Below, piece after piece: positions 7,645 to 18,029 of a stretch of 64,000 nucleotides of DNA. This DNA is from Bryobacterales bacterium (lineage in GTDB: Bacteria > Acidobacteriota > Terriglobia > Bryobacterales > Bryobacteraceae). Each line of letters opens with the position of its first letter. The first letter of the stretch is position 1. The stretch covers positions 1 to 64,000 of the forward strand of contig SHUD01000005.1 in NCBI GenBank assembly GCA_009697505.1, written 5' to 3'. Below the pieces are notes generated by a model. It searched no databases and was not told the origin of the DNA. It was given only the letters and a program-made list of their open reading frames with translations. The translations under genes were made by a program, and so were the position numbers.

Positions 7645-8166
7645 CTAGAACAGTTCCACGTTAAAAGCGAGCCAGGGTTTGCCGGGGATATCCTTGAACC
7701 AGTGCACGACGCCGGCGGGCACTACGATGATGCTGCCCTTGTCCAGCGCCCAGGTCTCGCCGCCTAGCACCGTCTCGCCCTTGAATTTCGTGGTGCCTTC
7801 TCCCTCCACGCCCGCCGATGATCCGGACATCTTGCCGCCCGTAACCAGCGTCGCGTTTCCTTCCAGCACGTAGAAGATGTGGGTTTTGAATCTGTGGAAT
7901 TCAGGATCCTGTTTGCGTTCCTTGCGGCGCACCGTCACCTTGTAGCTGGAGGCGCCCTTGAACATCGGGTTCTTTTTCGAATCCAGCAGCTCGCCGAGAA
8001 CCCCGTTGGTGCCGCCTGGGCTGGCAGGATCGATTCCGAACGCTTTCTTCACTTGTTCGGCACTATAGTAAGAAACCTTCTGGTTGCTCGCGTTGTTCTG
8101 CGCCGTTAACGGCAGAATCCCTATCGCCAGCAGCAGCGTTCCCAATACTTTCGGCGTCGTTCGCAT
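7645..8166 (-). CDS. Secreted cupin-domain protein
   Basis: The ATG at 8166 is preferred because AAGGAG lies just upstream and MRTTPKVLGTLLLAIGILPLTAQ is a good signal peptide; the track start at 8220 adds 18 residues. The 173-residue product has a single cupin fold in its C-terminal half (HRFKTHIFYVLEGNATLVTGG and IIVVPAGVVHWFKD), with histidines that could bind metal. The substrate is unknown. It follows the two-haem cytochrome gene's upstream side with 37 bp between them on the same strand, so the two are probably co-transcribed (cupin first). Confidence 0.8.
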   Translation of the reverse strand: MRTTPKVLGTLLLAIGILPLTAQNNASNQKVSYYSAEQVKKAFGIDPASPGGTNGVLGELLDSKKNPMFKGASSYKVTVRRKERKQDPEFHRFKTHIFYVLEGNATLVTGGKMSGSSAGVEGEGTTKFKGETVLGGETWALDKGSIIVVPAGVVHWFKDIPGKPWLAFNVELF

Positions 8167-8336
8167 GGTTAAGTTTTCTCCTTGATACCTACTTCCGGCA
8201 TGCAGGCAGTATACACCCATGGGTTACCGCGAAGTGGACGGGGACCCTCTCGGGCCACGCACGTGATATTTTAGATGCGGGCTGGGCGTGCTTGGAATCC
8301 AGCTCAACCTGAATCTAGAACAAGCAGGAGGCATCC

Positions 8337-10997: not shown

Positions 10998-11103
10998 GCT
11001 GCGCGCTTCGCTTGAGCTTGCCTGGGAGCCGTTTGGCGGTCGTAATGCGCTCAGAGAGCTGAGAAGGTCAAAGGCCAAGTCTCGCGAGTAGCCCCCGCGC
11101 TGC

Positions 11104-11976
11104 TCATTTGGCTTCGTTTCGGGTTATTCCAAAGGTTGGCGTGATAGGCCAGCCAACGTACTCGTAGGTCGTATGTTGCACAGCGGGGCTCAGGCCGTTA
11201 TTCGCAAGTCGTTCGTAGATGGTCATATCGCCCAGGGATGGGAGATTGACGAGGTAGGGACCAAACTGCACGGTGCACCCGCGATGCCATGCTGGCTCAA
11301 GCACGCGGAGCACGCGTCGAATTGTCATCGGAAAGTCCGCTTGTGCGTCAGCAACGAAGGTCAGCATGCGTCGTTCATCGCACTCCTGGATCTGTGTTCG
11401 CACGATTTCCATCGCGGGGTCGAGAACAATCTTGTAGCCCTCCATCGCCACTAATGCGAGGTAGCCCGCGCGCAACCAGCTAATGCGCGCACCAAGTTCC
11501 GAATAGCGTTCATGCTCCACTGTCAGCGAGGCACCCGCCCGTCCGAGCCGCTGAAGTGCTTCGCTCATCCCCGGTCTATTGAGATGCCTGGGGATGGTGA
11601 GCGCGTATGAGCCATCCTTCGCATTAAGCTGGCCGTTCACAGTTATTCCGCCGATGGTTGCCTTTATTCGATGCGGTCGATTGGCCCTGCCAGCCATTGC
11701 CAGGCGCACGTCCTCCTTGGTCTTCGCTGACGCATCCAACTTGGTGCCTGCCATGTTGTTGCATGAGGTGCACGTGAGTAGGAGCTCATGACCGCCGACA
11801 CCTTGCGGCGGCACATGCTCCTTCGAAAGGCGGCCGTCGTCTAGCGCCTCCACTGAGAATGGGTTCAGGCAAATCGGGCAGACGTACGTCGGCACAGCGT
11901 ATATCCCCGGACACGCTTGATCATACGCGGCGGCGCCAAGATCAAACCAATCGCGTTTCTTCCCTTGTGCAGACAT
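11104..11976 (-). CDS. HNH-endonuclease-like protein with zinc-finger cysteines
   Basis: A 290-residue protein without signal peptide. Near the N-terminus it has CPIC, then SKEHVPPQGVGG and LLTCTSCNN, which match the Cys4-zinc HNH layout (CxxC, E/D-H-[VI]P, CxxCNN). The remaining 200 residues contain no domain I recognise. HNH proteins with unknown C-terminal parts are often nucleases from defence or mobile contexts. The gene has less GC-rich codon use than its neighbours and lies inside the interval bounded by the two 99-bp repeats, so lateral acquisition is plausible. The actual substrate is unknown. Confidence 0.7.
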   Translation of the reverse strand: MSAQGKKRDWFDLGAAAYDQACPGIYAVPTYVCPICLNPFSVEALDDGRLSKEHVPPQGVGGHELLLTCTSCNNMAGTKLDASAKTKEDVRLAMAGRANRPHRIKATIGGITVNGQLNAKDGSYALTIPRHLNRPGMSEALQRLGRAGASLTVEHERYSELGARISWLRAGYLALVAMEGYKIVLDPAMEIVRTQIQECDERRMLTFVADAQADFPMTIRRVLRVLEPAWHRGCTVQFGPYLVNLPSLGDMTIYERLANNGLSPAVQHTTYEYVGWPITPTFGITRNEAK

Positions 11977-12206
11977 TCACTCTGTCAATTATCGCAAGGA
12001 ACAAATTGGCACACCTTGTTTGCGGCTCGTGAGGCGATTGCGCGCCCGTCGGAATTTGCGGGCGAGAAGTCGGTTTGGGGGAAACGTGGCCGTGATCTCC
12101 TCGAACGCCGTTTTCTGGCCAAGTAATGGCGTCGGCCCAAAAAGTAGCTTAGCGACTATTACGTCGGGGTGACTTCCAGGTAGCTGATTTCGGGCCTAAG
12201 TCCCGG
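11977..12206. other. Intergenic region, no gene seen
   Basis: About 230 bp between the HNH gene start and the SMP-30 gene stop. The short plus-strand ORF there has no recognisable features and no start signal. I see no hairpin or repeat. Confidence 0.4.
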
Positions 12207-13220
12207 CTATTTCGCCCGGCCCTTATACCCTTCTGCGAGCATCGCGACCTGGTACACTGCTCCGCGAGCGACGATGTACAGCATCTTCTTGTCGGGACCC
12301 GCGAAGGCCAAGTTGTTGGGATTCCTCGATACGGGAATGGTGCCCAGGTGCTTGCCCTGTGGGCTGAAGACCTGGATGCCCGCCGCCGTTGCCGCATACA
12401 CGCGGTCCTGGCCGTCGATCGCGAGGCCGTCCCCCCCAAATCTGACATCGGGCGTCCCGTTCGGCCTCTGGGTCACGATTTCATACTTGGCGAAGTTGCG
12501 CCGATTCTTCACAGTCCCGTCGGGCTGGACGTCGAAGGCCAAGATGTACTCACCGCCTTCTTTGGGAAGGTCGGCAATGGAGAGCGTCGTTTTGGCGGCT
12601 CTGCTCTGCGTGGCCACGTAGAGGGTCTTTTCATCTCGACTCAGTGTGATGCCGTTGATCCGCTCGACGGGATCTGCAAACACCGTGATGACCTTCGCAC
12701 CCGGACGGGCATAGAGGACCGTGCCCGAGCCTGAGAGCGTGAAGTAGACGCCATCCCTCTTGTCAACCACGAGATCGTTAGGACCCTCGAAGGGCTTCCC
12801 GTCGATGCTGTCAGCAAGAATCGTCTTCCTGTCCTGGGGCCAGATCACGCCGATTGAGTTGGTTTTCCCGTACTTCAACGAGGTAATGAGACGTCCCTTC
12901 GAGTCGAAGCCGATGGCGCTCGATCCGTCCGTGCCGCTCAGAAATGTCGCAGGTTTTCCGTGGGGATCTACCTTGCCGATACGGCGCGCCATGTAGTCCC
13001 AGTAGAGAAGCGTCCCGTCCGCCATCGTGGCCGGCCCATCGGTGTGCTTCAACCCATCTACGATGACCTGAACCTTGGTTCCTCCCTTCACCACGCCTGG
13101 AATATCCGGTGCGATCGTGTCGGTGGCCGGCGGCGGGAGCGGTGTTTCGCCTTGCTGGCCAAACGCCGTCACGGCGCAACGAAGAACGAATACAACGACA
13201 AATCCTGCCTTCAGCTTCAT
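12207..13220 (-). CDS. Secreted SMP-30/gluconolactonase/LRE-like beta-propeller protein
   Basis: The ATG at 13220 sits 5 nt after AAAGGAGGAG, a strong ribosome site, and starts a signal peptide (MKLKAGFVVVFVLRCAVTAFGQ); the track start at 13247 adds 9 residues. The 337-residue product has six-bladed SMP-30 signatures: EGPNDLVVDKRDGVYFT, INGITLSRDEKTLYVA and GGDGLAIDGQDRVYAATAAGIQVFSPQG. These contain the E, N and D residues that bind the divalent cation in gluconolactonases. The reaction would be hydrolysis of a sugar lactone, perhaps the product of a periplasmic quinoprotein dehydrogenase; that connection is inferred. Confidence 0.85.
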   Translation of the reverse strand: MKLKAGFVVVFVLRCAVTAFGQQGETPLPPPATDTIAPDIPGVVKGGTKVQVIVDGLKHTDGPATMADGTLLYWDYMARRIGKVDPHGKPATFLSGTDGSSAIGFDSKGRLITSLKYGKTNSIGVIWPQDRKTILADSIDGKPFEGPNDLVVDKRDGVYFTLSGSGTVLYARPGAKVITVFADPVERINGITLSRDEKTLYVATQSRAAKTTLSIADLPKEGGEYILAFDVQPDGTVKNRRNFAKYEIVTQRPNGTPDVRFGGDGLAIDGQDRVYAATAAGIQVFSPQGKHLGTIPVSRNPNNLAFAGPDKKMLYIVARGAVYQVAMLAEGYKGRAK

Positions 13221-13695
13221 CGTCTCCTCCTTTGCCTGAGTCGCCAACCGCGCGGTCCCTTACTCACCTTCGACCAAGCCCGCACAGGGCCGGCGCGGCC
13301 CTCCAAACTGCCCAGAAACTCGCGCTGTTCCGCCGCGCCAGGCTCCGTTGTGCGGGCGAGTTCCTTAAAATGCGACGCGATTAGACGAAGCGCCACAAGC
13401 ATACTCCGTCCGCGCCTGAAGCAACAGAGCTATGCGTCCGATTTCTGATGTAGACTCGTCTCGCCAGCGCCATAATTCGGATCAAAATTAGTTTATCTCA
13501 TTGGCCGACACACCAATCGCGCCAGCGCGTTACCCTTGCGCCATCTGCGCCATCTGCGCCATCTGCGCCATCTGCGCCATCTGCGCCACGTTTCCGTGTA
13601 ACGCCCTATCCGCTGATTTGGTCTCAACGCGGTTCAGAAGTCGGCTTTTGGGAAGTTGCCGTCTAACGTATGTCAGCAAACTCCGGGGGCAGACG
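13221..13695. other. Intergenic region with no gene, holding a short tandem repeat
   Basis: About 475 bp. The listed ORFs are low-complexity readings of the 9-bp tandem array (CAICAI or MAQMAQ) and lack start signals or homology. Apart from that array I see nothing functional. Confidence 0.5.
13537..13588. repeat. 9-bp tandem repeat TGCGCCATC, about 5.8 units
   Basis: Five perfect consecutive copies of TGCGCCATC are followed by a partial sixth. The period is a multiple of three, so it reads as CAI or MAQ repeats, but no supported gene covers it. It is likely a slippage-prone microsatellite. Confidence 0.9.
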
Positions 13696-13794
13696 GGTGG
13701 CGGGGCGATCGCCAACACTGGCTTGAGCCTCACACCCGAAGCGGATGCTCCGGGCGGCAACAACGCCATCTACGTTTTCGCGCTGCCGCAATAG
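13696..13794 (+). pseudogene. 3'-terminal relic of a second PQQ dehydrogenase
   Basis: The 99 bp encode the last 32 residues of a quinoprotein (GGGAIANTGLSLTPEADAPG...FALPQ) and end in TAG, whereas the intact gene at 9225-10997 ends in TAA. All four nucleotide differences from the intact copy are synonymous (ACC/ACT, ACG/ACA, ATT/ATC, TAA/TAG). That pattern implies divergence while both copies were still functional, followed by loss of the rest of this copy. No upstream PQQ coding sequence remains. Confidence 0.85.
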
Positions 13795-14359: not shown

Positions 14360-14467
14360 TGAACACTTCGAGTGAGTCGAGGCGGGGTGGCCGAGGATGC
14401 GAGCCGGCCGGCTCCGCCCCAGTCTTTTTCGTGTATACTGCGTTTGGCCGAAAATAAAGGTGACTCT

Positions 14468-15238
14468 ATGCGCCGCTTCGTACATATTTCCGTTTTGATT
14501 TCCGCGCTGGTGTTCACGCTGCCGGCGGCGGCGCAGTGGGTCAACCAGCCCACGAAAGGGGCTCCGCGAACCAAGGACGGAAAGGTGAATTTGGCGGGGC
14601 CGACGCCCAGGATGGCTAATGGAAAACCCGATTTCTCGGGCATGTGGAGCGCTCCCGGATTCAGCACGAAATATCTGGAGAACCTGGCGGCCGATGGGGT
14701 CGAGGTGCCCATGCTGCCGTGGGCGGCCGCGGTTTACAAAGAGCGCGTGGAAAACCACGGGAAGGACCGGCCCTCGGGGACCTGCCTGCCGCATAGCGTG
14801 ACGGATTTTGACGCGCACCACAACCCCAAGAAGGTGATCCAGTCGCCGGACCTGATGGTGCTGCTGTTTGAGAGTTATCACACGTTCCGGCAGATCTTCA
14901 CCGATGGGCGGGCGCTGCCGGCGCAGCGCGATCCGGCGTGGTTCGGCTACTCGGCGGGGAAATGGGACGGTGACACGCTGGTTGTGGACACGGTGGGCCT
15001 GCATGAAAAGACCTGGCTTGACGACGGAGGCCACCCGCACAGCGATGCGTTGCACGTGATCGAGCGCTTCCGGCGTCCCGACTTCGGGCACATGCAAGTG
15101 GAGTTGACGATCGACGACCCGAAGACGTACTCCAAGCCGTGGACCGTGAAAATTCCGTGGGCCTATATGCCCGATACGGATCTGCTCGACTGGTTCTGCG
15201 AGAACGAGAAAGACACGCAGCACATGGTCGGAAAGTAA
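14468..15238 (+). CDS. Secreted paralogue, GKWDGDTLVVDT family
   Basis: The ATG at 14468 starts a signal peptide (MRRFVHISVLISALVFTLPAAAQ) and gives about 256 residues; the track start at 14372 is unlikely. Shared motifs with the 1.5-3.2 kb paralogues are PRTKDGKVNL, RQIFTDGRALP, GKWDGDTLVVDTVGLHEKTWLD and HSDALHVIERFRR. It also has SGTCLPHSV, a cysteine in the same place as the others. No enzymatic role is known to me. It stands alone here, 60 bp upstream of a truncated LigD. Confidence 0.78.
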   Translation: MRRFVHISVLISALVFTLPAAAQWVNQPTKGAPRTKDGKVNLAGPTPRMANGKPDFSGMWSAPGFSTKYLENLAADGVEVPMLPWAAAVYKERVENHGKDRPSGTCLPHSVTDFDAHHNPKKVIQSPDLMVLLFESYHTFRQIFTDGRALPAQRDPAWFGYSAGKWDGDTLVVDTVGLHEKTWLDDGGHPHSDALHVIERFRRPDFGHMQVELTIDDPKTYSKPWTVKIPWAYMPDTDLLDWFCENEKDTQHMVGK

Positions 15239-15297
15239 AGTAGGAAGACAGGAATCGAGCAAAGGAGAGGAAACTGAACTAATATCCGGAACTCTCC

Positions 15298-16971
15298 GTG
15301 ATGCCGCATCAAGTGCGTGCCCGCCAGGCGATTCTCGACGGTGAGATCACGGCGCTCGACGCCAAGGGACGTCCCAACTTCGAACAGTTGCAGCGGCGCA
15401 TCAATGTGGCGGAACCAGGCGCGATTGCCCGCCTGGCGCGCAGCCATCCCGTGGTGTTTTACGCCTTCGATCTGCTGTACCTGGACGGCCATGATTTGCG
15501 GCCGGTGCTGCTGATCGAACGCAAGAGGTTGCTGCGCGAAATTTTCACGCCGACGGACGTCATCCGCTACTCCGAGCACTTTGCCGCCGAACCCGCGCAC
15601 TTGCTCGACGCCGTGAAAGAGCAGGGACTGGAGGGCATTGTCGGCAAGCGCGCGCGCAGCCGCTATGAATCGCGCCGCTCGGGGGATTGGGTGAAGTGGA
15701 AAACGGCCGACACGTCCGACTTCGTGATCTGCGGCTCCACCGAAGGAAAGCGGCAGGGCTTAGGCGCGCTGGTGCTGGGGATCCGGGATGCGGCGGGAGC
15801 GCTACGGTGGGCGGGCAACGTCGGCACCGGTTTCGACGCAGCCATGGTACGCAGGCTTCAGAAGAAACTCGCGGCGCTGGAAATACAAGAATGTCCGTTT
15901 GCCCCGGTGCGCGGCCTTCCCAAAAATGCCACCTGGGTGCGGCCGGAGTTGATGTGCGAAGTGGGCTTCGCCAACTGGACCGGTGAAGGCCGGCTGCGCG
16001 CGCCGGTGTTTGTGAAATTACGGGACGATATCGGCCCGCCGCCGCGTGCGCGGACGCCGCTGCTCGATGCCAGCGCCAAGGAGGCGATGCTCACGCTGGA
16101 TAGCCATCGCCTCAAGTTCACCAATCTGGACAAACTGTTTTATCCGAACGACGGCTACCGCAAACGCGACTTGCTCAACTACTACGACGCGGTCGCCCCG
16201 CTGATTTTGCCGCATCTGCACGACCGGCCGCTGTCGCTCAAGCGTTATCCCAACGGAATAGAGAAGCCCTATTTTTTTCAGAAGCAGGTGGCGGCGAGTT
16301 TTCCGGCGTGGGTCCCCACCGTGGTGGCGGAGGGCATCCGTTATGCGATGGCGCAGGAGCGGGCGGCGCTGCTGTTCCTGGTCAACCTGGGCTGCATCGA
16401 CCACAACCCATGGATGAGCCGCCGCGGCTCGCTGGAACATCCGGATTACTGGTTGATCGATCTCGACCCGCACGAATGCGGCTACGACAAGATCGTCGAG
16501 GCGGCGCAGTGGGTTCACGGGCGGCTGGACCGGCTGGAGTTGGAAAGCTATCCCAAGACCACGGGCGGCGACGGCATGCACATCTTTGTCCCACTGAAGC
16601 CGGTGTACACGTACGCACAGGTTCGCGCGTTTGCGGAAGCGCTGGCGACCCTGGGCGCCGCAGAACGGCCGGATTTGTTCACCACTCCGCGGGCTGTTGC
16701 GCGACGGGAAAAGGGCAAAGTCTATTTCGACTGGCAACAGATTGCGGAGGGCAAGACCATCTCTGCTCCGTATGTACTACGCGCTTATCCAGGGGCTCCC
16801 GTGGCCACGCCGCTGGCCTGGGCCGAAGTGACTTCACGCCTGCGCCCGGAGCAATTTCATCTGGGCAATGCCCTGGCGCGGTTCGACCGGGTGGGCGATT
16901 TGTTAGCGGGCGTCCTGGAGCGGCCCCAGCGGCTGGAGAAAGCCATTGAGAAACTGGCTACCCGGGTGTAA
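15298..16971 (+). CDS. ligD: DNA ligase D, 5'-truncated (ligase domain without catalytic lysine, plus polymerase domain)
   Basis: The reading frame begins inside the ligase domain: motif III LDGEI at about 13-17, FYAFDLLYLDG, motif IV EGIVGKR at about 112-118, motif V WVKWK at about 131-135, then the OB domain. A complete LigD polymerase domain follows from about residue 262 (LKFTNLDKLFYP, DLDP, TTGGDGMHIFVPL, VYFDWQQ). The phosphoesterase domain and the KxDG motif with the adenylated lysine are missing. Homology-like residues (YPEL) continue a few codons upstream to a TAA, so a 5' deletion is likely. The ligase cannot work alone, while the polymerase could. LigD normally acts with Ku in end joining; no ku gene is in the window. 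Confidence 0.85.
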   Translation: MMPHQVRARQAILDGEITALDAKGRPNFEQLQRRINVAEPGAIARLARSHPVVFYAFDLLYLDGHDLRPVLLIERKRLLREIFTPTDVIRYSEHFAAEPAHLLDAVKEQGLEGIVGKRARSRYESRRSGDWVKWKTADTSDFVICGSTEGKRQGLGALVLGIRDAAGALRWAGNVGTGFDAAMVRRLQKKLAALEIQECPFAPVRGLPKNATWVRPELMCEVGFANWTGEGRLRAPVFVKLRDDIGPPPRARTPLLDASAKEAMLTLDSHRLKFTNLDKLFYPNDGYRKRDLLNYYDAVAPLILPHLHDRPLSLKRYPNGIEKPYFFQKQVAASFPAWVPTVVAEGIRYAMAQERAALLFLVNLGCIDHNPWMSRRGSLEHPDYWLIDLDPHECGYDKIVEAAQWVHGRLDRLELESYPKTTGGDGMHIFVPLKPVYTYAQVRAFAEALATLGAAERPDLFTTPRAVARREKGKVYFDWQQIAEGKTISAPYVLRAYPGAPVATPLAWAEVTSRLRPEQFHLGNALARFDRVGDLLAGVLERPQRLEKAIEKLATRV

Positions 16972-17022: not shown

Positions 17023-17511
17023 ATGAAATTACGAGTAGTTGTGATGGCCGTCACGATGGCCACGGCGCTGTTGGCGCAGCCTCCCCGCGACCGTTTCCAG
17101 AACGCCGATGTGCTGCCGCCCACGCCGCAGGAGATGATCGAGCGCCATGTGAAGAGACTGGGTTATTTCCTGACGCTCACCACGGATCAGCAGGCCCAGG
17201 TCACCAGTATTCTCACCGCGGACATCAACAATCTGGCGACGTTGCGCGACGCGGCGAAAACCCAGCGCGAAGCGGTTGTAGCGGCGATTAAAGCGAATAG
17301 TGGCATTCCAGCGGCCGTTACGGCGTTGTCGGCGACGCAGGCCCAGGTCGAGACCATCCATGCCAGCCAGGCCGCAAACATATACGCGATTCTGACGGCG
17401 GATCAGAAAACGAAAATCGGGAATGCCCTTAACCTGCTGGCCGGCGGCGGTGGACCGGGCGGGCCCGGACATGGGCCTCGCGGCCCGCGGGGCGGCGGCC
17501 CTCCTCACTAA
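17023..17511 (+). CDS. Spy/CpxP-like periplasmic LTxxQ protein
   Basis: A 162-residue protein with a signal peptide (MKLRVVVMAVTMATALLAQ), a helical body with LTTDQQAQVTSIL and a second ILTADQKTKI, the LTxxQ-type repeats of the Spy/CpxP/heavy-metal-resistance family. The tail is Gly/Pro/His-rich (GGPGHGPRGPRGGGPPH) and might bind metal or be flexible. Members act as periplasmic chaperones or stress sensors. The stop codon overlaps the convergent YkgJ-like gene by 4 bp. Confidence 0.75.
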   Translation: MKLRVVVMAVTMATALLAQPPRDRFQNADVLPPTPQEMIERHVKRLGYFLTLTTDQQAQVTSILTADINNLATLRDAAKTQREAVVAAIKANSGIPAAVTALSATQAQVETIHASQAANIYAILTADQKTKIGNALNLLAGGGGPGGPGHGPRGPRGGGPPH

Positions 17512-18029
17512 CCGCGGAACTTGGTTAAACCCTTCACCTGTTCCATCCAGTTATAGACGATGGGGCAGTAGGTAGCGCGGTCCACGTGGGCCCACATTTT
17601 TGCCTCCAATGACCCGCTACCTCGCAAAAGGTGAGGGAAACGTTCGCAGTTGCCGGGCCGGGCCTCGTAGACCGTACATTCGTTCCCCTCCAGAAATTCA
17701 CAGCCGCCCTTGGAGTCCCCTGAAGGCGGATTGCGGCGCAAGATCATCTTCCCATCCTCGTCGACAGCCGTGTGTTTTTCTACAAAAGTCTTCTCCGGCA
17801 TCCCCAGAAAGTGCGCCAGCTTTTCCACGTCCCGTTCGGCGATCTGCACGTCGGTGACGCGGCAGCACTCGCCGCACTGGCGGCAGTCGATTTTATCCTG
17901 CACTTCCTCGGCCGCTTTGCGGAACTGGCGTTCCACGAACGTATGCGACTTCAGATATCTGCGGAACTTCAGGTTTTCGTCCCGTTTCTTTTCGCCGAGG
18001 CGCCTGATCTGAACTAAGTCCGTGATCAC
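17508..18029 (-). CDS. YkgJ-family cysteine cluster protein
   Basis: The protein has 173 residues with the diagnostic cluster CRQCGECC at about 49-56 and later cysteines in GGCEFLEGNECTVYEARPGNCERFP and YCPIVY. YkgJ/Fli-B-like proteins carry up to eight conserved cysteines and probably bind zinc or an iron-sulfur cluster; their function is mostly unknown. It is cytoplasmic by absence of a signal. It is divergent from the next gene, with the start regions nearly touching. Confidence 0.85.
   Translation of the reverse strand: MITDLVQIRRLGEKKRDENLKFRRYLKSHTFVERQFRKAAEEVQDKIDCRQCGECCRVTDVQIAERDVEKLAHFLGMPEKTFVEKHTAVDEDGKMILRRNPPSGDSKGGCEFLEGNECTVYEARPGNCERFPHLLRGSGSLEAKMWAHVDRATYCPIVYNWMEQVKGLTKFRG

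Follow-up and report, generated by a model that had tools for sequence, protein, structure and literature searches.

Does an open reading frame that has kept the polymerase domain of LigD and lost the catalytic lysine region of its ligase domain encode a stand-alone primase-polymerase, or is it what is left of a deleted NHEJ gene? The question is raised by a locus in the 64,000-nucleotide stretch of DNA analysed here (the window), which belongs to a Bryobacterales bacterium whose metagenome assembly, G000, comprises 2.56 Mb in 87 contigs and is 65% complete. An initial annotation had described the truncation and raised the chance that the polymerase is retained on its own. Comparison with the genus, and above all with the nearest relative of the window genome (G002, 94% complete), indicates that the frame is the remnant of a conventional NHEJ locus cut by a deletion of about 2.3 kb, and most likely a young pseudogene. 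The features of the locus are as follows.

14459..15238, plus strand: upstream gene for a putative secreted protein, an intact frame ending in TAA; left flank of the deletion
15239..15282, plus strand: leader and ribosome-binding site of the presumably lost cupin gene, GGAATCGAGCAAAGGAGAGGAAACTG; aligns to the pre-cupin sequence in G002 (L032)
15283..15297, plus strand: ligD codons Y-P-E-L-S, the 3' edge of the deletion; match the genus LigD in frame
15298..16971, plus strand: truncated ligD of 557 aa (back part of the nucleotidyltransferase domain, OB and POL), from Pfam, full-length and PDB alignments
17023..17511, plus strand: right flank gene, LTXXQ / metal-resistance-like (match below cut-off), intact and at the same place in G002

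The frame opens with a GTG at 15298, followed by an ATG at 15301, and neither stops nor frameshifts are found in its 557 codons, which correspond to roughly the C-terminal two thirds of a LigD according to Pfam and full-length comparison. Pfam matched only profile positions 70-204 of 204 of DNA_ligase_A_M (PF01068), a complete DNA_ligase_A_C (PF04679, the OB part) and positions 2-253 of 254 of LigD_Prim-Pol (PF21686), that is a complete POL preceded by about 257 aa of ligase remnant. Ligase motifs III, IV and V are kept. When the remnant was aligned with LigD-POL and LigD-LIG structures of the PDB, its POL catalytic aspartates, in DLD and VYFD, fell in register with those of 5dmu and 2iru. The catalytic lysine motif KxDG is not present in the remnant, and the description of a LigD deprived of its lysine region with the polymerase domain kept was therefore correct. 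It had left unremarked a further loss: the 3'-phosphoesterase domain (PE; LigD_N, PF13298) was not found by Pfam in the remnant and is present in the full-length relative. Named relatives of this ligD belong to Candidatus Sulfopaludibacter and to other bins of Bryobacterales, and the remnant is 65-75% identical over its length to intact LigD of the genus. Since these intact orthologues, of the Candidatus Sulfopaludibacter type, are PE-LIG-POL proteins with LigD_N, DNA_ligase_A_M from position 1 (with EVKWDG upstream of the deletion point) and POL, the PE domain was also lost from the window gene. In all, about 267 codons are missing, which comprise the whole PE domain and the N-terminal portion of the nucleotidyltransferase domain.

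The edge of the deletion can be read in the sequence. Codons 15283-15297, immediately 5' of the frame, spell Y-P-E-L-S, and a TAA stands before them at 15280. YPELS, mostly as QYPELS or a close variant, occupies the matching place in intact relatives (plus-strand loci readable in frame), in agreement with the YPEL noticed earlier. The start at 15239 did not hold, as that base directly follows the upstream gene's stop codon, and the stretch from there to about 15280 is cupin leader, not ligD. A Pfam profile match stretched across two stops had offered bases 15223-15282 as ligD homology; it was discarded, since this stretch aligns instead with the leader of the G002 cupin gene. Set against G002, the leader (GGAATCGAG, AAAGGAGAGGAAACTG) passes straight into TATCCGGAACTC of ligD, with a junction at about 15278-15283 where it is joined directly to the YPEL codons; no cupin gene follows its leader at the window ligD locus. 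Together with the intact relatives, this junction bears out the view that the gene once had its 5' part and lost it by deletion. Distances taken from G002 and from another genus genome, G010, give the size of the deletion as about 0.57 + 1.73 = 2.3 kb.

Both flanks are recognizable. The upstream gene matched no Pfam family, has many paralogues in the genus and is 88% identical in nucleotides to its positional counterpart in G002. On the other side, the second gene 3' of ligD (17508-18029) keeps its place not only in G002 but also in G005, G010 and others. Further upstream, about 2.7 kb of the window (10999-13696, with ORFs 11104-11976 and 12207-13247, both on the minus strand) is missing from G002 at the same place, which means that the locus was rearranged also beyond the upstream gene. 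A cupin paralogue, 59% identical to the cupin of the G002 ligD locus, is found at window 7648-8184 on the minus strand.

In most of the genus, ku adjoins ligD on the opposite strand in a head-to-head, divergent arrangement. A Ku match was obtained in 20 of 23 genus genomes, the exceptions being G000, G002 and G011. A ku or a full-length ligD elsewhere in the window genome was looked for, and no Ku and only one LigD match were found in G000. At 65% completeness, either gene could sit on missing contigs; the absence of ku is weak evidence from G000 alone and stronger when combined with G002, where the genome search returned no Ku over threshold and no LigD beyond a fragment.

In G002, the left flank gene and the cupin gene are followed by a 3' fragment of ku, on the opposite strand, and then by the 3' part of ligD. 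The G002 ku fragment is a 134-aa frame, 65-73% identical to Ku of the genus. Its ligD piece starts at the equivalent of window position 16545, in the last quarter of the gene, and covers only POL profile positions 135-254, without the DLD aspartates. In this sister lineage, half of POL has thus been removed by deletion at the same locus. A single deletion shared by the common ancestor of G000 and G002 was ruled out, since in each genome parts survive that are gone from the other. The retained sequences point instead to two separate, overlapping deletions of one locus, by which NHEJ would have been lost twice.

The ligD stretch that both genomes keep (window 16546-16968, G002 L032 9399-9821; 141 codons) shows 54% third-position identity, against 63-79% in the flanking genes, and the two pieces are not grouped together with support. 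The two alleles may not have descended vertically as simple sisters, and one of them may have been replaced by recombination from another lineage before the deletions.

Other members of the genus show irregularities as well. G011 (95% complete) has neither a Ku nor a LigD match and is probably a further case of NHEJ loss. In G016, ligD (L026 2620-2730) looks broken, with two overlapping tblastn pieces in different frames that meet just before DLD; this was seen in one assembly and could be an assembly error, and the genome has other ku and POL copies.

Selection on the remnant was assessed with MG94-type codon models (F3x4 frequencies) in which omega on the window branch was compared with omega elsewhere. 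For the whole remnant the values were 0.1005 and 0.097, not significantly different. A comparison of polymerase and ligase parts had been proposed at the outset, and it gave a trend toward a tighter POL (0.069 on the window branch versus 0.081 elsewhere, lnL gain 0.14) and a looser ligase part (0.152 versus 0.105, lnL gain 0.55), neither difference being significant. In a two-phase test, the window branch was divided into one phase under constraint and one of neutral evolution, and for the whole remnant the best length of the neutral phase was 0. The log likelihood fell by 1.35 at 0.05 and by 3.5 at 0.1 neutral substitutions per codon for the whole remnant, by 1.2 and 3.1 for POL, and by 0.3 and 0.7 for the ligase part, on a branch of about 2.4-2.7 substitutions per codon in total (about 2.5 for the whole remnant). 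The neutral phase is therefore bounded low in both parts, and no relaxed selection is seen. The G002 remnant, devoid of the POL aspartates, is bounded alike and is equally constrained. When the branch test was confined to the 141 shared codons, saturation was too strong for the window and G002 tips to be told apart. Finally, about 3% of random changes in the frame would create a stop, such that 0.05 substitutions per codon correspond to about 1 stop in 557 codons; zero stops are unsurprising for a young remnant.

These results bear on the alternative in which the shortened ligD is retained for a stand-alone primase-polymerase that carries a non-ligating tail at its N-terminus and acts in Ku-free gap filling during repair in the manner of Prim-PolC. 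Such a protein would be translated from the GTG at 15298 or the ATG at 15301, on a message starting upstream of the previous gene. The complete POL with its aligned aspartate motifs, the open frame and the direction of the omega trend are all what this alternative predicts, and separate Prim-Pols of mycobacteria, which work in base excision repair, are an established case of POL activity in the absence of a ligase domain (PMC5663958). However, the omega differences are not significant, and the G002 remnant is just as constrained yet cannot be an active polymerase, so that constraint on POL is no argument for retention. Misfolding is probable for half a nucleotidyltransferase domain, about 135 aa long. 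Moreover, about 25 bases, a long spacing, separate the first start codon from the ribosome-binding site of the lost cupin, and no sigma-70-type promoter match was found near the start of the remnant. With no Ku found and a sister that lacks half of POL, retention, as the initial annotation had envisaged it, appears unlikely. More doubtful still is a very recent conversion, by the deletion, of an NHEJ ligase into an expressed and used Ku-free primase-polymerase; if true, LigD would here be caught in the act of giving rise to a stand-alone Prim-Pol.

It is equally improbable that the metagenome assembly fused separate sites, of one genome or of two strains, and that the real genome carries an intact ku-ligD locus: the assembly is incomplete and in many contigs and the remnant is as constrained as expected for an intact gene, but both flanks follow the G002 order, the window contains no Ns, the junction has no long word shared between the G002 leader and relatives' ligD that could mislead a graph assembler, and the separate G002 assembly also has a broken ku-ligD locus.

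The young pseudogene is thus the preferred reading. The ancestral locus would have held ku and a PE-LIG-POL ligD, divergently transcribed, and one deletion would have run from the region of the cupin start codon through all of ku to about ligD codon 267. The window lineage would formerly have had the cupin gene, the deletion would have occurred in one step and the product of the remnant would not be used. The frame would be open, with its POL residues kept, only because little time has passed since the deletion. Against this, the 557 open codons and the unraised omega of POL would be expected under retention too, and it is a coincidence in need of a cause that each of two sister lineages should recently have suffered its own deletion at the one locus. 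No new mechanism is required, as this is ordinary gene loss, and NHEJ has been gained and lost many times across bacteria (PMC7719229). The wider importance of the case is small. It does caution that a polymerase need not be retained where a metagenome bin shows an intact-looking POL frame.

Compared with a PE-LIG-POL LigD in the domain order of Pseudomonas aeruginosa, the remnant shares the LIG-POL order, all POL motifs and ligase motifs III-V, whereas its PE domain and ligase lysine region are deleted and its ku partner was not found. With mycobacterial Prim-PolC and PolD2 it has in common a POL without a working ligase domain in the protein and without Ku. However, Prim-PolC is a separate family encoded beside LigC, while in the window a POL of the NHEJ type sits on a shortened LigD, with a putative use only. 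The closest parallel is the repeated loss of NHEJ in bacteria (Genome Biol Evol 2020, PMC7719229), where Ku and LigD are likewise gone from a lineage of a mostly positive group. To that picture the window and G002 add visible deletion boundaries, one set in each of two sister lineages at a single locus. They show clearly how a repair pathway of two genes can vanish, through overlapping deletions centred on a divergent ku-ligD pair.
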